A DNA stretch of 64,000 nt, taken from Candidatus Peregrinibacteria bacterium. Lineage in GTDB: Bacteria > Patescibacteriota > Gracilibacteria > UBA1369 > LOWO2-01-FULL-3. Positions within the stretch are counted from its first letter, which is position 1. Every line of letters starts with the position of its first letter. Below are positions 2,877-55,000 of the stretch, in pieces. The DNA lies in the NCBI GenBank assembly GCA_018654255.1, contig JABILX010000001.1, positions 1 to 64,000 of the forward strand, given 5' to 3'. Under the pieces are notes generated by a model. It made no database searches. It was not told where the DNA came from and saw only the letters and a list, made by a program, of their open reading frames with translations. Position numbers and translations under genes: made by a program.

Positions 2877-3266
2877 ATGGAAACAAAAAAGTTCCTAAAA
2901 CAACTATTAGTTGTAACTGCGTTAATGGTAGGAGCGATCACGCTTTTATCTGTGGTTCCTATGACAGCTTTTGCTGCATTGGGCGACGAAGCGAATCCAT
3001 TCAAAGATCTACCACCTGATGGGAATATAAAACCATTGGTAGTAAAAATCGTTAATTACGCACTAACATTCCTAGGAATAGTAGCTGTAATGATGATTAT
3101 TTATGCTGGAATCAGGTACGTAACATCAGCTGGAAAACAAGAATCAATAGATACAGCAAAGAAAATAATTCTTTACTCTCTTATAGGTATAGTAATTATC
3201 CTTCTCTCTTACGCAATTGTTAACACTGTAATAGGTGCAGCAGCAGGAGGAGAGGCGGCAATTTAA
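2877..3266 (+). CDS. T4SS-pilin-like small membrane protein, copy 1
   Basis: This 129-residue protein has a signal peptide ending near AFAA and then two hydrophobic helices (about residues 60-85 and 100-125) around a short polar loop with TSAGKQESIDTAKK. That architecture matches the VirB2/TrbC-like pilin group (Pfam T4SS_pilin) common in Patescibacteria. The mature protein probably sits in the membrane or polymerises into a filament; which of these is not shown. It is followed after 26 bp by a paralogue sharing the loop and helices almost exactly. No VirB4, VirB6 or other secretion genes are in this window. Confidence 0.8.
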   Translation: METKKFLKQLLVVTALMVGAITLLSVVPMTAFAALGDEANPFKDLPPDGNIKPLVVKIVNYALTFLGIVAVMMIIYAGIRYVTSAGKQESIDTAKKIILYSLIGIVIILLSYAIVNTVIGAAAGGEAAI

Positions 3267-3292
3267 TAATATAAAAAAATAACCATATTCCT

Positions 3293-3688
3293 ATGAAAAC
3301 AATCAAACAAGTTCTAATCGTTCTAGGTTTGATGACAGGAGCCATTGCACTTCTTTCTTTTGTGCCAACTGCTTCTGCGGCATTAATCACCTCTGGTGAT
3401 ATTCCGTCAGAAATTGCAGGTGCTACAGGTGGAGAAGGGTCAATCAGAGCTCTTATTTTGAGGATCGTAAACTACGCCCTAACATTTTTAGGAATCGTAG
3501 CTGTAATGATGATCATTTTTGGTGGTGTTACATACGTAACAGCAGCTGGAAAACAAGAATCAATCGACAATGCAAAGAAAATAATTCTTTACGCGTTGGT
3601 TGGTATCGTTATCATCCTTCTATCATTTGCGATCGTTAATACAGTTCTTCAAGTAGCAACAAACGGCGGAGGAACAGCGGTTCAATAG
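3293..3688 (+). CDS. T4SS-pilin-like small membrane protein, copy 2
   Basis: This is a paralogue of the preceding gene (131 residues), with the same signal peptide plus two-helix layout and the nearly identical segment AAGKQESIDNAKKIILYA. The region before the first helix differs (SGDIPSEIAGATGGEGSIRA versus a shorter loop). Short DNA stretches in the loop region are identical, suggesting a fairly recent tandem duplication. Both are read from the promoter at 2818-2846 and end at a strong terminator. Two pilins might form a mixed filament or serve different conditions; this is inference. Confidence 0.8.
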   Translation: MKTIKQVLIVLGLMTGAIALLSFVPTASAALITSGDIPSEIAGATGGEGSIRALILRIVNYALTFLGIVAVMMIIFGGVTYVTAAGKQESIDNAKKIILYALVGIVIILLSFAIVNTVLQVATNGGGTAVQ

Positions 3689-5689: not shown

Positions 5690-5766
5690 CGGGGTGTAGC
5701 TCAGTTGGCTAGAGTGCGCGCTTTGGGAGCGTGAGGTCGGAGGTTCAAGTCCTCTCACCCCGACCA
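5690..5766 (+). tRNA. tRNA-Pro(UGG)
   Basis: The cloverleaf has acceptor CGGGGTG/CACCCCG, anticodon loop TTTGGGA (anticodon TGG), T loop TTCAAGT and an encoded CCA at 5764-5766. Confidence 0.96.
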
Positions 5767-5925
5767 GTTAGTGGCAAGATTTCCGGTTCGGAGTGAAGCG
5801 GATTTTTTTTAATCCGCGAAACGAAGAACGCCGTTTGATAAATCTGCACTTATTTGACGGAGGCAAAAGAAAGCAAATTTAACAAAAAGGCGAGGAAATC
5901 CCCACTGGACTCTTCCCTACTGAAA
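5767..5925 (+). other. Intergenic region with hairpins, possible degenerate copy of structured element I
   Basis: No gene is seen. The region starts TAGTGGCAAG, similar to the start of the element at 49575. It contains a hairpin GCGGATT/AATCCGC with a six-T loop, and later GACGGAGG between AAAT..GC and GC..ATTT. These resemble the conserved loop and arm of structured element I (46425 and 49575) but alignment is loose. The tspO -10 box TATAAT lies just after, at 5943-5948. Confidence 0.35.
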
Positions 5926-25836: not shown

Positions 25837-25864
25837 ATTTAGAAAAATTTAAGTTTTATTTAAG
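25837..25864 (+). promoter_or_regulatory. TTTAAG box array upstream of comM
   Basis: ATTTAG (25837-25842), TTTAAG (25848-25853) and TTTAAG (25859-25864) lie at exact 11-bp spacing, followed by GTTGGC. The last box is 45 bp from the comM ATG. The downstream AACTTGT is shared with the recA site. Confidence 0.8.
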
Positions 25865-39843: not shown

Positions 39844-40020
39844 GCAGACAACAAGGTTTCAGGTTGAAAAAGCCGCGAGCGCTCCCCGTCATGGAAGCGA
39901 GCGGGTTTAGCAAGCTGAAAGCGCAGGTGTCCTTTCTCTTCCCTTTCGAGGGGGAGGCCAGGAGGGGGTTTTGATAACATCAATCTTTTTCAGCGTTTTC
40001 TTAACTAGAAGCAGTCCACC
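39844..40020 (+). other. Intergenic region, possible diverged structured element I
   Basis: No gene is seen between tRNA-Ser and the small gene at 40084. A GC-rich stretch contains GCCGCGAGCG and AAGCGAGCGGG. Later, GGAGGCCAGGAGG and CTTTTTCAGCGTTTTC recall the conserved loop and 3' end of structured element I. The similarity is weak and stems are not clear. Confidence 0.25.
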
Positions 40021-40083: not shown

Positions 40084-40308
40084 ATGCCAGAAGTAACAGA
40101 CGACGAAATTATAACCAGATTTGGAGCAGATTTTGAAGGGACCGATGCTATGGACGAAAAAAACATGGTTTTTGCAGGACAAGAGTTTTCTCCAACAGAC
40201 TTGATCCGCCATATGAGAGAAAAGACAGGAATAGGGATAGCATGGCTCAACGCTCTTCGAAAAACAATGGGAGAAGACCTTCTCCAAGCAAGTAAAATCG
40301 ATTCATAA
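40084..40308 (+). CDS. Small unknown protein
   Basis: I do not recognise this 74-residue protein. It is acidic in the first half (TDDEIITRFGADFEGTDAMDEKN) and helical in the second (PTDLIRHMREKTGIGIAWLNALRKTMG). No signal or membrane segment is seen. The leader CCTAATTCATTAACCAC shares its first 14 bases with the leader of the lipoprotein gene at 40942. Confidence 0.55.
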   Translation: MPEVTDDEIITRFGADFEGTDAMDEKNMVFAGQEFSPTDLIRHMREKTGIGIAWLNALRKTMGEDLLQASKIDS

Positions 40309-40309
40309 G

Positions 40310-40425
40310 CAACGCGAGCTCCGCGAGACTTTGCCGTAGCGGAAGAACGTCGAATAGGAAATTTCTCGATTCTGATCACGACAGGATGAAAATTTACTAA
40401 TGAGGCGAGGTTTTCCCTACTCACC
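40310..40425 (+). other. Intergenic region with possible diverged structured element I
   Basis: TTTGCCGTAGCGGAAGAA, GAAATTT...GACAGGATGAAAATTT and TTTTCCCTACT follow in the same order as in structured element I (49575-49702), with a possible GAAATTT/AAATTT arm. No gene is seen. Confidence 0.35.
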
Positions 40426-46329: not shown

Positions 46330-46421
46330 GGAGAGGTACCCAAGTGGCTGAAGGGGCGGGATTGCTAATCCTGTAGGTCGGTCTAACCGGCGCGGGGGTT
46401 CAAATCCCCCCCTCTCCGCCA
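46330..46421 (+). tRNA. tRNA-Ser(GCU)
   Basis: Acceptor GGAGAGG/CCTCTCC, anticodon loop TTGCTAA (anticodon GCT), a long variable arm, T loop TTCAAAT, CCA at 46419-46421. Confidence 0.96.
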
Positions 46422-46424
46422 TTA

Positions 46425-46551
46425 AATAGCGAGAAATTTGGGTCCGTAGCGAAAGCGAATCGCATATTCGCTGTAGCGAAGGAAAAAAAGAGCAGGAAAA
46501 TTGCGACGGCCAGGAGTGAAATTTTCCAAGCTTTTTTAGTATTTCCCTATT
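46425..46551 (+). ncRNA. Structured element I, copy 1
   Basis: This 127-base intergenic element begins three bases after tRNA-Ser. Closing stem: AATAG and GAAAT (46425-46437) with ATTTC and CTATT (46541-46551). Hairpin: GCGAAT (46455-46460)/ATTCGC (46466-46471). Long arm: GGAAAATT (46495-46502)/AATTTTCC (46520-46527) with a 17-base loop containing GACGGCCAGGA. The second copy at 49575 has compensatory changes in both inner stems. RNA or DNA function is open. Confidence 0.72.
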
Positions 46552-46565
46552 GGCCACAACAAACC

Positions 46566-46606
46566 TTGACTCAACCCGCTGGTTACGATATAATATAATC
46601 GTAACC
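46566..46606 (+). promoter_or_regulatory. Toxin-antitoxin promoter with operator over the -10
   Basis: TTGACT (46566-46571), 17 bp, TATAAT (46589-46594). The inverted repeat GGTTACGAT (46581-46589)/ATCGTAACC (46598-46606) brackets the -10, so a bound antitoxin would block transcription. Confidence 0.82.
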
Positions 46607-46615
46607 ACTTAAGTC

Positions 46616-46831
46616 ATGACCGCATCACGCTCAACAGTCTCGTTTACAGAACATAATTGGCAAAAACTTGCCGATGCAGAGAATAAAAGCAAGACAGTAA
46701 ATATAGCTTTGAGATTTTATTTTGATTCCAAAAAATTCTTACAAAAAAAACAAGAAGAATTTGTGTTAAAAGAGCTAAAGCATTACGATGATACCGGTGA
46801 ATCATATAGTTTCGAAGAAACTTTTAAATAG
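46616..46831 (+). CDS. Probable antitoxin of a RelE/ParE-type pair
   Basis: This 71-residue protein precedes a RelE-like toxin by 8 bp. It starts MTASRSTVSFTEHNWQKL and has a long charged C-terminal helix (KKFLQKKQEEFVLKELKHYDD) that would wrap the toxin. The N-terminal strand plus helix fits ribbon-helix-helix or related DNA binding, and an operator covers the promoter. Family not certain. Confidence 0.72.
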   Translation: MTASRSTVSFTEHNWQKLADAENKSKTVNIALRFYFDSKKFLQKKQEEFVLKELKHYDDTGESYSFEETFK

Positions 46832-46839
46832 TCCTTTCA

Positions 46840-47106
46840 ATGGAGATCAGAGTTCTAAGGCAGCCGTATAAATTTATACGGAGGGCCGATAAACCCCTAA
46901 AAGAAAAAATTAAGGAAGAAGTTTTAAGGATTAAAAATAATCCGAATCTTGGCAAAAAAATGAAAGGGTCCTTGTACAAAAACATTTTCAAACACAGATT
47001 TAACTTTAAAAAAGTTAGCTACAGAATAACTTACCGCATAGAAAACAACATCTTGATCATCTGCATCTCAACGAGAGAGAATTATTACAGGGATCTGAGA
47101 ATTTAA
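46840..47106 (+). CDS. RelE/ParE-family toxin
   Basis: This 88-residue protein has the small RelE/ParE-fold pattern: helix 1-2 (IRRADKPLKEKIKEEVLRIKNNPN), KKMKGSLYKNIFKHRF and a C-terminal sheet YRITYRIENNILIICISTRENYYRDL. RelE toxins cut mRNA at the ribosome; ParE types poison gyrase. Basic residues and the arrangement favour RelE-like RNA cleavage, but this is not certain. Its stop directly abuts the convergent rlmN stop. Confidence 0.83.
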   Translation: MEIRVLRQPYKFIRRADKPLKEKIKEEVLRIKNNPNLGKKMKGSLYKNIFKHRFNFKKVSYRITYRIENNILIICISTRENYYRDLRI

Positions 47107-48138
47107 TCACTTGCCCTCCCCGGCAAGTTGTCCGCACGCTCCCTTAATCTCTCTTCCAAACCTATATCTCTGTGTCACGGTTAGTCCCTCCTCTTCCAGA
47201 ATCTCCCGAAACCGACTAATCCTTTCTCCTGAAGATGCCTGAAATCCCTGAGTAGGATTGAAAGGAATTAAATTAATCATAAAAAGTCCGCCGCCGCGGC
47301 CTGAAGCACTTCCCAGTTTCGCCTTCAAAACAGCCGCCAACTCCCGAGCCATCTCATCCGAATCATTCACATCCTTCAACAAAAGATATTCAATCATAAC
47401 CTTCTTATTAGTCTTTTCAATATACGAAGCCAAAGCATCCAAAAGCTCATCCACAGAATGAGCATCATTCACAGGCATGATCTTCCCACGAATAGAGTCA
47501 TTCGGCGCATGCAAACTCACAGCCAACTTCACCTGCAAACCTTCATCAGCAAACCTCTTGATCCCAGCCACAACTCCACAAGTCGAAATTGAAATCGAAC
47601 GAGCTCCAATTCCAATCTCTTCATTTATCAATCGCACAGCCTCCATTACCGAATCATAATTATTAAAAGGTTCACCCATCCCCATAAAAACCACATTCGT
47701 AACGGCAGAACCACCCCCCGGCCCCTCTCCGAGCAAAATCCTCTCAAAAACCAAAACCTGTTCTACCATCTCGAAAGCACTCAAATTTCTACTAAAACCA
47801 AGCCGCCCAGTCGCACAAAACGCACAATTCATCGCACATCCAACCTGACAAGAAACACAAACAGTATTTCGATCCTTGTGTTTCATCAGCACGGCTTCAA
47901 TCACAGCCCCATCCTCCATTTTCAATCCAGCCTTCACTGTGGCACCATCACCAGATTCAAAAACCTCAGCTTCAATATCCAAAGGACACTCGCGCGACAA
48001 CTCAGCCCGCAAATCCTTTGGCAAACTCTTAGCTTCTTCCCAATCAGAAACAAATTCTCGAAACACAGCATCGTAAACTTGCTTCATTCGATACGAAGGT
48101 TGCCCGGCCAAAACTTTATTTAAATTCCCCAAATTCAT
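47107..48138 (-). CDS. rlmN: 23S rRNA/tRNA adenine C2-methyltransferase RlmN
   Basis: RlmN is a radical-SAM enzyme that methylates A2503 of 23S rRNA and A37 of some tRNAs. This 343-residue protein carries the C-x3-C-x2-C motif (C101, C105, C108 in GCAMNCAFCATG), the GMGEPFNNYD stretch and the C-terminal cysteine region near GACGQLAG, where the catalytic Cys that holds the intermediate lies. The N-terminal PSYRMKQVYDAVF region is the usual accessory domain. Normal length. Confidence 0.95.
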   Translation of the reverse strand: MNLGNLNKVLAGQPSYRMKQVYDAVFREFVSDWEEAKSLPKDLRAELSRECPLDIEAEVFESGDGATVKAGLKMEDGAVIEAVLMKHKDRNTVCVSCQVGCAMNCAFCATGRLGFSRNLSAFEMVEQVLVFERILLGEGPGGGSAVTNVVFMGMGEPFNNYDSVMEAVRLINEEIGIGARSISISTCGVVAGIKRFADEGLQVKLAVSLHAPNDSIRGKIMPVNDAHSVDELLDALASYIEKTNKKVMIEYLLLKDVNDSDEMARELAAVLKAKLGSASGRGGGLFMINLIPFNPTQGFQASSGERISRFREILEEEGLTVTQRYRFGREIKGACGQLAGEGK

Positions 48139-48239
48139 GACAAATAGATTACGGGCGGATTATATTGAATCAACCTACTCTTTACAACCCCCCCTTATAA
48201 AGTGTTACAATCCCTGCAAGCGACATTTAACCTCAACCT

Positions 48240-49208
48240 ATGTTCCAAGCCATTCTTCCATACTTACTTTTCGCACTAGGATTTGTAGTCTTAATCAAAG
48301 GAGCTGACATGCTTGTAGACGGAGCTTCAGCGATAGCAAGAAAACTTCGAATTCCAAGTCTTGTAATAGGACTGACAATAGTTGCATTTGGAACATCGGC
48401 TCCGGAACTTCTAGTCAATATAGTAGCCGGCATCAACGGAAGCGCAGATTTGGCGATAGGTAACGTAATAGGTTCAAACATATCAAACATTCTTCTTATC
48501 CTCGGAGTAGCAGGACTCATATGCCCACTTAGAATAGGTCACGGAACAGTATGGAAAGAAGTCCCATTCGCACTTCTTGCAGTTGGAGTAATGTTCGTAA
48601 TGGCAAACGACATAATGATAGAAGGAGGTCCAACATCTGTTATCAGCAGAAGTGACGGAATAGTCATGCTCGGGTTCTTCGCCATATTTATGTACTACAC
48701 CTATGGAATTTCACGAGTTCAAGGAGAAGAAGACGCAGACAAAGCGCCATTAATGAAAACCTCAAAAGCACTTCTTTTCATTTTTCTAGGATGTTTGGGG
48801 CTTGGATTTGGTAGTGATTGGGTGGTCAAAGGAGCCATTCACGTTGCGACAATATTTGGACTATCAGAATCACTCATCGGTCTCACAATAGTAGCGATAG
48901 GAACTTCTCTACCAGAATTAGTGACGGCAGGAGTTGCCGCATACAAAAAACAAGCAGACATCGCAATCGGAAACGTTGTTGGTTCAAATATATTCAATAT
49001 CTTCTTTGTTCTAGGAATTTCGAGCACAGTAACTCCTATAGCATTCTCTCCAGCTCTCAACATAGACATCGCAATCTGCGCAGTAGCAACTTTATTACTC
49101 ATGTTAGCGGTCTTCATAGGTAGAAAGCACGAAATCGAACGCTGGCAATCAGCAATTTTCTTGAGTTTTTATGTAGGATATATCGTATACCTTGTAATGA
49201 GAGGATAA
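48240..49208 (+). CDS. Ca2+/Na+ exchanger (CaCA family)
   Basis: This 322-residue protein has about ten membrane helices and two inverted alpha repeats, each with G-T-S-x-P-E-L: FGTSAPELLVNIVAG and IGTSLPELVTAGVAA. The ion-site motifs GNVIGSNISNILLILG and GNVVGSNIFNIFFVLG are present. Similar to YrbG of Escherichia coli, it probably exports calcium in exchange for sodium or protons. It has a short AACC leader and appears to stand alone. Confidence 0.93.
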   Translation: MFQAILPYLLFALGFVVLIKGADMLVDGASAIARKLRIPSLVIGLTIVAFGTSAPELLVNIVAGINGSADLAIGNVIGSNISNILLILGVAGLICPLRIGHGTVWKEVPFALLAVGVMFVMANDIMIEGGPTSVISRSDGIVMLGFFAIFMYYTYGISRVQGEEDADKAPLMKTSKALLFIFLGCLGLGFGSDWVVKGAIHVATIFGLSESLIGLTIVAIGTSLPELVTAGVAAYKKQADIAIGNVVGSNIFNIFFVLGISSTVTPIAFSPALNIDIAICAVATLLLMLAVFIGRKHEIERWQSAIFLSFYVGYIVYLVMRG

Positions 49209-49253
49209 ATTCCTTAAAATTAAACACGTATAAATTAATTAACCCTTATTCCC

Positions 49254-49574
49254 ATGGCAAAAAAGAAAGGTACGGCAGAAATGGTTCTTCTCATTCTGGC
49301 GTTAGTTTTCCCGCTAGGAGGAGCAAACTTCATTTTAAATGTTGTTTTGACAATCATGTATCTCCCATCTCTATCTGCATACCTAACAACAGAGATAGAT
49401 ACAGCTCTTCGAATATTCCTACCATTTATCCTATATCTAGTTTCACTTGGATTCTCAATAGCGCTTCTTAAAGGAAAGACAAAAGAAAAAGCACTCACAC
49501 TTTTAGCATTGGTTCTAAACTCAATCCTAATAGCAAGTGGAGTATTTTTCTTGATCACGACTTACTTCTTATAA
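49254..49574 (+). CDS. Small three-helix membrane protein
   Basis: I do not recognise this 106-residue protein. It has three predicted membrane helices (about 10-34, 50-70, 80-104) with a basic loop KGKTKEKA between the last two. The AACCC leader precedes the ATG. The structured element I copy begins right at its stop codon. Confidence 0.65.
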   Translation: MAKKKGTAEMVLLILALVFPLGGANFILNVVLTIMYLPSLSAYLTTEIDTALRIFLPFILYLVSLGFSIALLKGKTKEKALTLLALVLNSILIASGVFFLITTYFL

Positions 49575-49702
49575 AATAGCGAGAAATGCGATCCGGAGCG
49601 AAAGCAAAGTAGCACCTTTGCTGTAGCGCAGGAGAAAAAGCGATAAGAAAATCATGACGGCCAGGAATAAGATTTTCTAAGCTTTTTCAGCATTTCCCTA
49701 TT
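49575..49702 (+). ncRNA. Structured element I, copy 2
   Basis: 128 bases, similar along its whole length to 46425-46551. Closing stem: AATAG/GAAAT at the 5' end and ATTTC/CTATT at the 3' end. Hairpin: GCAAAG (49604-49609)/CTTTGC (49616-49621). Long arm: AAAAAGC (49635-49641)/GCTTTTT (49681-49687) outside and AGAAAATC (49646-49653)/GATTTTCT (49671-49678) inside, with the 17-base loop holding GACGGCCAGGA. It starts immediately after the upstream stop codon. Confidence 0.72.
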
Positions 49703-52669: not shown

Positions 52670-52703
52670 AGGCCTCTTCGTGCACGGAGGGGCCTTTCTT
52701 TTT
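52670..52703 (+). terminator. Intrinsic terminator of the M23 gene
   Basis: AGGCCTCTTC (52670-52679) pairs with GGAGGGGCCT (52686-52695) over a 6-base loop with two G-T pairs, followed by TTCTTTTT. Confidence 0.9.
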
Positions 52704-52720
52704 AGTGGCGAGAAATGCGG
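52703..52720 (+). repeat. Truncated fragment of structured element I
   Basis: TAGTGGCGAGAAATGCGG closely matches the first bases of the 49575 copy. Only the 5' end is present and it ends exactly at the uvrD stop, so it is a remnant or a chance match. Confidence 0.4.
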
Positions 52721-55000
52721 TCACACCTTCTTCAAAGGCGCCACACTAGCTGCCAACTTCTTCACGCCAACTTTAGGATCATCAAAAGCAACCGTAATAA
52801 CCCCACCTTGAACTTCAACAACAAACCCAACTCCAAAAACATTGTGAGATACTTTTTCACCTACTTTATAAGAAATCTCTCCCGGAGATTGATCTTCAAA
52901 AGAATCACCTGCATCAGCAAAACCATGCTCAACAGGAACAGGAACATCCCCAATCCCTTCCATAGAAAAGTCTCCACGCACACGATTAAACACTTTGCCA
53001 ACGCCACTATTATGCCCACCAAAATTATCATCAACCAGCTCTTCGGGAATATCATTCAAAAATTGAGAAGGAGCATTTCTACGGTATTCTCCATAAAGCA
53101 TCCTCTCCATCGCATGAAGCAAATAAAGTCTTTCCATCGCTCGAGTCATCGCAACATACATCAGGCGTCTCTCTTCTTCCAACTGCTCGCGCTCCAGCAA
53201 ACTCCGATTATGAGGAAAAATTCCTTCCTCCAAACCAGCCACAAAAACATTAGGGAACTCAAGTCCCTTCGCGCTATGAATAGTCATGAAAGTCACAGCA
53301 TTATCCCCGTCCGCAGATGTATCAATATCAGCAATCAACGAAACTTCCTCCAAGAAAACACTCAGAGACAAACCAGCCTCCAAAGAATCATATTTCGAAG
53401 CCACGGAAATCAATTCTCGCACATTCTCCAGTCGAGCTTCTCCCTCCGACGTCCCATCATCCAAAAACTCCTTGTATCTAGCATCTTCCAAAACATGCTT
53501 AATAACACCAGCAGCAGCAAACTCTGAATTGACGTCACTTAACTTATCAATCAGCTTAACAAATTTCGAAATAACCTTAACTTTAGCTTCACTCAATCCA
53601 GATATAGAAGAAGCACGAGCCATAGCTGCAAGCAAAGTCAATCCTTCGCTCCTCGCATAATTCTGCACTACCTCAATTGTTTTCGATCCAATTTTGCGAG
53701 AAGGAACATTAATAATTCGGAGCAAACTCACTCCATCAGCAGGATTATGAAGAACCCTCAAATAAGCAAGCATGTCCTTGATCTCCTTCCGATCATAAAA
53801 CTTAATTCCTCCAACGATTCTATAAGGCAGCCCGTGTCTCAAAAACACTTCTTCAAGCACACGCGATTGCGCGTTGGTCCGATACAAAACTACGAAATCA
53901 TTATAATCAGGGCTTTCATATTGTTTTAGAATCTCTCCAATCTCTGTAGCGATCAACTCGCCCTCATGTCTCTCATTTTTCGCAAGCCAATGACTAACAT
54001 TCTTTCCTCCATCAGCCTCAGTCCAAAGCTTCTTTTCCTTTCGTCCCTTATTCTTTGCAATCACACTATGTGCCGCATCCAAAATAATCTGTGTTGATCT
54101 ATAATTCTGTTCCAACAAAACAATTTTCGCCTCAGGATAATCTTTTTCAAAATCCACGATGTTCTTGATCGTAGCACCCCTCCAACTATAAATACTCTGA
54201 TCCTCATCCCCAATCACACACAAATTCCGATATTTCGCCGCAAGCAATTTGATCAAAATATACTGCGCATGATTCGTGTCCTGGTACTCATCCACAGAAA
54301 TATACCGAAACTTTTCCTGATACTCCTCAAGCACCTCAGGAAACCCTCGGAACAATTCAACAGTCTTCATTATCAAATCATCAAAATCCAAAGCATTATT
54401 TTGCTTCAAAGCTTTTTGATAATGTGGATAAAGCATTGCAACTTTTTCCATAAAAGCCGTGTTGGCAAATCGCTGAAACCCATCCGGTCCTATCAACTGA
54501 TTCTTCGCATTTGAAATCGCGCCGAGAATAGCTTTTGGATTCATAGACTTGGGACTAATCCCAGCCTGTTCCATCAACTGTTTCATCAAAATTTGTTGAT
54601 CAGCCATGTCATAAATAGCAAACGTTCCTTCATAATCCAGCAGAGGCAGATGCTTCCGCAAAATCCTCACACAAACCGAATGGAAAGTTCCAATCGTAGG
54701 TAATTCATCAGAAACCATATCCGAAAAATTCCCCTTGAACAACGGCCCACCACGAGCGCTCTTGCCCAACAACTTCGCCACCCTCTCCTTCATCTCATTC
54801 GCAGCCTTATTTGTAAAAGTAACCGCCAAAACATTCCAAGGCGAGACACCCTTCTCTTGAATCAAATACGCAATCCTATTAGTCAAAGCTCGAGTTTTCC
54901 CAGATCCAGCCCCAGCAATCACAAGAAGCGGGCCGTCCACACAAGTGACCGCTTCAATCTGTTTTTCGTTCAGGGATTTTAGGATTGTACTGTTGTTCAT
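52721..55000 (-). CDS. uvrD: UvrD/PcrA-type DNA helicase
   Basis: This 759-residue superfamily 1A helicase has Walker A AGAGSGKT (29-36), motif II VDEYQDTN, GDEDQSIYSWRGA, EQNYRST, and the C-terminal motif VAMTRAMERL. It unwinds DNA in 3'-5' direction in excision and mismatch repair and removes proteins from DNA. The C-terminal tail (VGEKVSHNVFGVGFVVEVQ...FDDPKVGVKKL) is the Tudor-like RNA-polymerase-binding domain of PcrA/UvrD. The predicted transcript start is close to the ATG. No recB-type nuclease part is present. Confidence 0.95.
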   Translation of the reverse strand: MNNSTILKSLNEKQIEAVTCVDGPLLVIAGAGSGKTRALTNRIAYLIQEKGVSPWNVLAVTFTNKAANEMKERVAKLLGKSARGGPLFKGNFSDMVSDELPTIGTFHSVCVRILRKHLPLLDYEGTFAIYDMADQQILMKQLMEQAGISPKSMNPKAILGAISNAKNQLIGPDGFQRFANTAFMEKVAMLYPHYQKALKQNNALDFDDLIMKTVELFRGFPEVLEEYQEKFRYISVDEYQDTNHAQYILIKLLAAKYRNLCVIGDEDQSIYSWRGATIKNIVDFEKDYPEAKIVLLEQNYRSTQIILDAAHSVIAKNKGRKEKKLWTEADGGKNVSHWLAKNERHEGELIATEIGEILKQYESPDYNDFVVLYRTNAQSRVLEEVFLRHGLPYRIVGGIKFYDRKEIKDMLAYLRVLHNPADGVSLLRIINVPSRKIGSKTIEVVQNYARSEGLTLLAAMARASSISGLSEAKVKVISKFVKLIDKLSDVNSEFAAAGVIKHVLEDARYKEFLDDGTSEGEARLENVRELISVASKYDSLEAGLSLSVFLEEVSLIADIDTSADGDNAVTFMTIHSAKGLEFPNVFVAGLEEGIFPHNRSLLEREQLEEERRLMYVAMTRAMERLYLLHAMERMLYGEYRRNAPSQFLNDIPEELVDDNFGGHNSGVGKVFNRVRGDFSMEGIGDVPVPVEHGFADAGDSFEDQSPGEISYKVGEKVSHNVFGVGFVVEVQGGVITVAFDDPKVGVKKLAASVAPLKKV

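Follow-up and report, generated by a model that had tools for sequence, protein, structure and literature searches.

The first 64,000 nucleotides of contig JABILX010000001.1 of a Candidatus Peregrinibacteria bacterium (assembly GCA_018654255.1; this whole stretch is called the window here) contain two similar intergenic sequences on the + strand, copy 1 at 46425..46551 (127 nt) and copy 2 at 49575..49702 (128 nt), whose stems differ in sequence and still pair. What kind of molecule is conserved here, and how did the copies reach their places? A preliminary description of the window had offered two readings, a mobile structured element and an unknown RNA family, of which the first is supported and the second disfavored by the results presented below. 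Our sequence comparisons make it likely that the two copies belong to a family of short non-autonomous mobile DNA elements, about 100 to 160 bp in length, whose fold is conserved and which are recognized by shape, as a folded single strand, by a putative trans-acting enzyme.

One fold in a family of divergent sequences

Copies 1 and 2 are 80% identical (blast E 4e-24), a likeness far above chance, and their boundaries had been placed exactly in the preliminary description; both start with AATAG (longer start AATAGCGAG) and end with CCCTATT. The compensatory changes claimed there are present both in the hairpin stem (GCGAAT/ATTCGC versus GCAAAG/CTTTGC) and in the long-arm stem (GGAAAATT/AATTTTCC versus AGAAAATC/GATTTTCT), and so is the 17-nt apical loop. 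In copy 1, the 5′ side of the terminal stem (46425..46439, + strand) carries a bulged C at 46430 and a bulged A at 46432, both conserved, and pairs with 46539-46551. Arm I (46443..46483, + strand) is the hairpin TCC-GTA-GC-GAA-AGCGAAT, which contains two GNA x GNA internal loops, and arm II (46484..46537, + strand) has an apical loop with GACGGCCAGGA at 46505-46515 (49656-49666 in copy 2) that is conserved in this subfamily only.

All copies folded have a three-way junction in common. The terminal stem consists of A-N-N-N-G / C-N-N-N-T, followed by the bulged C, a G-C pair, the bulged A, and seven further pairs; its terminal 5 bp vary with compensation, and GCGAG/CCC alone is constant. Arm I is composed of UCC, GNA x GNA, two pairs, a second GNA x GNA, and seven pairs, and arm II is long and subfamily specific, the loop GACGGYCAGGA being restricted to one subfamily.

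Two covariance models were used, R1 with six sequences and 43 pairs and the broader R2 with 130 sequences. In the alignment of 130 copies, two-sided changes were observed in 40 of the 43 pairs, and 94.1% of the cells were paired, compared to at most 51% in slid controls. The covariation score was 0.675, compared to 0.168 for shuffled and at most 0.147 for slid controls, and for 20 held-out copies absent from R2 we obtained a score of 0.625 with two-sided changes in 37 of the 43 pairs. As the alignments were fitted to the covariance model, they are biased in its favor, but the effect far exceeds the controls. The best-conserved letters are those of the unpaired motifs, namely the bulged C and A (118 of 130 copies) and the two GNA x GNA loops (G.A/G.A; 111/130 and 101/130 copies). 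These results show that one three-way-junction fold is maintained while almost all of the stem sequence turns over.

When the covariance model search proposed in the preliminary description was run on the genome and its relatives, it yielded 14 copies in the 1.24-Mb genome itself (R2; four of them inside the window) and more than 150 in related Peregrinibacteria; in the same genome, R1 gave 13 matches and blast with copy 1 gave nine. Further copies and covariation, the two things whose absence would have spoken against the family, were thus both found, the latter to an overwhelming degree. A pattern scan showed that the carriers of relatives are Candidatus Peregrinibacteria/Gracilibacteria metagenome-assembled genomes (MAGs). 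At the level of the order, 28 of 89 genomes had matches, with 1 to 23 copies per genome, and the distribution was patchy even inside one taxonomic family: none of the five genomes of genus g47 had copies, and three g48 genomes carried 5 to 12. When 380 genomes sampled evenly across the phylum were searched, matches occurred in two further genomes only, both of the same class, one of which (G441; G and L numbers are our handles for genomes and loci) is doubtful because its match overlaps a tRNA-Leu. Phages and plasmids gave no match, and three pattern matches in viral contigs were not confirmed by the covariance model. In the open-access literature, to which our search was confined, we found no account of the element family or description of its placement and constraints; the family is previously unrecorded, and its general kind, small palindromic mobile repeats, is known.

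Several copies differ in length. Minimal derivatives that reach barely beyond the terminal stem (e.g., ACATGCGAGAAATGTTTTTCAGCATTCCTCTTGT) are located behind a full copy at L103:3130-3175 and L064:3137-3180, and one copy, at L304:2142-2446 (G068), reaches 305 nt through an unusually long insert in arm II, in which no gene was recognized. The copies L282-L287 (G433), from another family of the class, have a common longer tail behind the stem, GAACCAGYACAG.

Mobility and insertion targets

Copies that are 96 to 99% identical and have unrelated flanks were found in G003 and G013, and copies with 95% identity in G043; the identity stops at defined ends. In both G013 and G043, near-identical copy pairs are located behind two different tRNAs. 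For 82 of 129 copies the nearest relative lies within the same genome, the expected value being 8%. Empty insertion points in relatives, for which the preliminary description had recommended looking, were found at the orthologous UPF0173 - tRNA-Arg(CCT) locus, where among 30 fetched genomes an element was present behind the tRNA in six and absent in about 20. A miaB-like gene (labeled by its N-terminal motif) directly follows the tRNA-Arg in G016 and G048, and in G000 the two are separated by the element. The occupants of this site are of different subfamilies. Further occupants, beyond the six, were found in the sister species G065 and G066, in which the flanks of the same tRNA-Arg are 85 to 89% identical and two clearly different elements occupy the same base (L107/L112); the site has therefore been used or exchanged repeatedly. 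Decay of the element is also visible (L106 versus L114). These results show that the elements move with exact ends and that copies spread within genomes. Dispersed copies, near-identical ones in unrelated flanks, and orthologous sites that are either occupied or empty give good support to the reading as a mobile structured element, and unrelated flanks and empty orthologous sites are also the general mark of a mobile element.

The loci were sampled by element matches and not by tRNAs. In 55 of the 130 copies the 5′ end is located 2 to 5 nt from the edge of a tRNA gene, compared to a chance expectation of 0.04 by a rough hand estimate (45 tRNAs, two edges, four positions, 1.2 Mb). Forty-three begin 2 to 5 nt behind the tRNA 3′ end in the sense orientation, 31 of them exactly 3 nt past the encoded CCA, and the other 12 lie antisense upstream of the tRNA, beginning 2 to 4 nt outside its 5′ end; the 3′ end of the element was at a tRNA edge in none of the 130 copies. 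Among the 20 held-out copies, 6 abut a tRNA. No feature of the element family proved stronger than the position right after tRNA genes, which the preliminary description had mentioned.

At least 17 copies are in tandem arrays, where they follow an equally oriented copy at a spacing of 3 to 7 nt, and 14 of the 39 remaining copies begin no more than 5 nt from the stop codon of a long open reading frame (ORF), often providing the TAG themselves. Three genera have an element at the 3′ end of their secA-like gene (labeled by its C-terminal motif; L142:3001, L150:3001, L289:521, - strand), and in two of these the element gives the last codon plus TAG. Several other copies are located behind intrinsic terminators. 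Insertion is thus polar, with the 5′ end of the element toward the target, and the favored targets are the outer edges of tRNAs, followed by copy ends, ORF stops, and intrinsic terminators. A general location at gene ends can be explained by selection against gene damage; the fixed spacing of 3 nt cannot.

The constrained molecule and the putative mobilizing enzyme

Selection acting on an RNA would be expected to leave G.U as the most frequent exception to Watson-Crick pairing. In the tRNA acceptor and T stems of the same loci, which served as a control, G.U accounted for 58 of 63 departures (92%). In the element stems, G.T accounted for only 90 of the 399 non-Watson-Crick cells (22.6%, a count that omits one terminal pair which usually is G.T) and A.C for 55 (13.8%), and the G.T share was 25% when well-aligned helices only were considered; neither strand therefore looks RNA-like. 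With DNA parameters, the top strand, which carries GNA mismatches where the bottom strand carries TNC, was predicted to be the more stable one in 120 of 125 copies. As the stems avoid G.T, the molecule under constraint is probably a folded single strand of DNA (ssDNA) rather than RNA, and the predicted stabilities point to the top strand.

In the mechanism that we propose, the strand with GCGAG...CCC would fold as ssDNA, for example at the replication fork, and a putative trans-acting enzyme would read the bulged terminal stem and the GNA x GNA arm by shape, cleave at the stem base, and join the element beside the target, which perhaps is folded too. Tentatively, one might go further and suppose that nothing but the shape of the folded ssDNA serves as the mobility signal and that the enzyme, aimed at the outer edge of tRNAs at a fixed distance, lies outside the classes of REP-associated tyrosine transposases (RAYTs), reverse transcriptases, and integron recombinases. 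If true, this would be a bacterial counterpart of tRNA-gene targeting by eukaryotic retrotransposons. The element uses tRNA gene ends as fixed-distance safe sites in the very small, gene-dense genomes of the candidate phyla radiation (CPR). Ty3 and the Dictyostelium TRE elements also settle at a fixed distance from tRNA gene edges, which are safe sites in a gene-dense genome, but the likeness is an analogy only, as they are eukaryotic long terminal repeat (LTR) and non-LTR retrotransposons guided by RNA polymerase III factors. The element would also be a clear case of covariation marking a DNA fold instead of an RNA, with the G.T share as a simple control applicable to other 'RNA' candidates, and it would point to a mobilizing enzyme in an uncultured lineage.

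Several observations weigh against the explanation proposed here. A search for target-site duplications gave only a weak excess at 4 nt (7 observed, 1.6 expected) and none that was consistent, the preference for hairpins at non-tRNA sites was weak (p 0.04), and about 20 copies had no recognizable target class. Quasi-palindrome correction or alignment noise could partly account for the low G.T share. Furthermore, neither an enzyme nor a copy with an enzyme gene inside was found in these assemblies, which are incomplete, so that absence is no proof. Clustering of the ORFs around 100 copies revealed housekeeping neighbors only and no common transposase, and a 5′-half pattern search for a long gene-bearing copy led to five unlisted places, which were 3′-truncated or internally deleted remnants or the 305-nt copy, in which no transposase-like gene was seen.

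Among other explanations, movement of a REPIN/BIME-like element in trans by a RAYT, a Y1/HUH enzyme, survives best and is nevertheless unlikely. RAYT cleaves ssDNA REP hairpins at GTAG (PMC3733652). Like REP, REPIN, and BIME sequences, the elements are short, non-coding, intergenic hairpins, often 3′ of genes and in tandem arrays, that are presumed to be mobilized in trans as ssDNA in a shape-dependent manner; about half of the copies start with A-GTAG, and PF01797 (Y1, RAYT type) is somewhat commoner in element genomes (11 of 28) than in the others (12 of 61). However, the tetranucleotide is not conserved, the other copies having ACATG, AATAG, AGTGG, AAGTG, AATTG, AGATG, etc., with the pairing partner changed too, and the element has a three-way junction, GNA x GNA loops, and tRNA-edge placement. 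A RAYT is not obligatory either: PF01797 was not found in the element-rich genomes G013, G043, G003, G005, and G069 (incomplete MAGs), and the fetched flanks of the Y1 genes checked, L018 and L021 of the own genome plus about 30 others, contained no element copy. RAYT was rejected as the mobilizer on these grounds. The Y1 (RAYT-like) gene of the own genome at L018 ~1330-1900 has its own AATCCGGATTAA repeats on one side, which are unrelated to the element.

A functional non-coding RNA family, e.g., in tRNA trailers, that spread somehow and was kept for its RNA would agree with the very strong covariation, the RNA-like GNA x GNA motifs, and the sense orientation of 43 of the 55 tRNA-edge copies. 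It would not agree with the finding that G.U is no more favored than other mismatches, with the 12 copies antisense upstream of tRNA genes, or with the patchy occurrence among congeners, and an Rfam 15 scan of the window matched the tRNAs alone, the element giving no match above the gathering score. We therefore consider an RNA family, the second reading of the preliminary description, to be rather improbable.

Relic cassettes of an integron-like system, with a tyrosine recombinase (possibly the host Xer) moving folded attC-like sites, would share with the element the conservation of structure above sequence, the bulges conserved on one strand of the terminal stem, and the arrays in one orientation. 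In contrast to attC sites, the element ends (by inspection) lack the GTT core motif, and there are neither gene cassettes nor an integrase beyond an Xer-like one. PF00589 is near-universal, with one to few matches whether or not the element is present (one each in the element-rich G013, G043, G068, and G085), and an extra tyrosine recombinase was rejected as the mobilizer; this explanation is quite improbable. By analogy, the element would work like RAYT/REPIN mobility or attC recombination, with shape as the signal, but it lacks the defining features of either that were tested.

Template switching during replication (quasi-palindrome correction) would keep stems complementary and account for their nearly pure Watson-Crick pairing with no selection or enzyme acting on the fold, but it is very improbable, as it leaves the invariant GNA x GNA loops, the C and A bulges, the dispersal, and the exact targeting unexplained. 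A retroelement copied by reverse transcriptase is hardly credible: group IIC introns insert behind hairpins and terminators, as some of the copies do, but the element is 127 nt only and has no domain V (no Rfam group II intron match), PF00078 is absent from G000, G013, G043, G067, G068, and G069, and its lack of association with the element (9 of 28 element genomes versus 19 of 61 others) led us to reject reverse transcriptase as the mobilizer.

Differences from other small repeats were apparent as well. Unlike classical miniature inverted-repeat transposable elements (MITEs), the element lacks sequence-conserved terminal inverted repeats, its terminal 5 bp varying with compensation. bcr1, RPE, ERIC, and other palindromic intergenic repeats are, like the element, 100 to 160 bp long, hairpin-folding, and dispersed, with no gene inside, but they differ in host clade, ends, and fold, and to our knowledge tRNA-edge placement has not been described for bcr1, RPE, or ERIC. 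RPE end in CGTC (PMC3733652), an end that the element copies lack.

Copies and other repeats in the window

Copy 1 (covariance model E 7e-31) begins 3 nt past the CCA of tRNA-Ser(GCT) (46330..46421, + strand). Copy 2 (E 9e-35) begins directly behind the TAA stop of a 106-aa ORF (49254-49574), and a convergent S41-peptidase-like ORF has its stop 10 nt beyond the 3′ end of the copy. The preliminary description had proposed diverged or truncated relatives at 5767, 40310, 52703, and 39844. The first is a full copy of a different subfamily (copy 3, 5770..5906, + strand, E 1e-23) with another arm II, located 3 nt past the CCA of tRNA-Pro(TGG) (5690..5766, + strand). At 40310 an element is indeed present, but it is a damaged copy (40266..40421, + strand, E 5e-7), of which the recognizable part, ~40312-40421, corresponds to the 3′ two thirds. 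The relative at 52703 amounts to a fragment of about 20 nt of the 5′ end, AGTGGCGAGAAATGCGGTC (52704..52722, + strand), read by eye directly behind an intrinsic terminator and too short for the model. The one at 39844 received no support from the covariance model, its last ~25 nt being alike by eye.

Directly behind copy 1, ORFs of 71 and 88 aa (46616-47106, + strand) resemble a toxin-antitoxin pair, the second protein being RelE-like by eye. An AT-rich motif, ATTTAAGTTTTATTTAAGG, is repeated at 25844, 40427, 50941, 50952, 61408, and 61419 and is possibly a promoter-like or binding repeat. Two direct repeats probably lie within coding sequence, one of 67 nt with 138-nt spacing and 99% identity (1-205) and one of 182 nt with 416-nt spacing and 80% identity (3048-3645).

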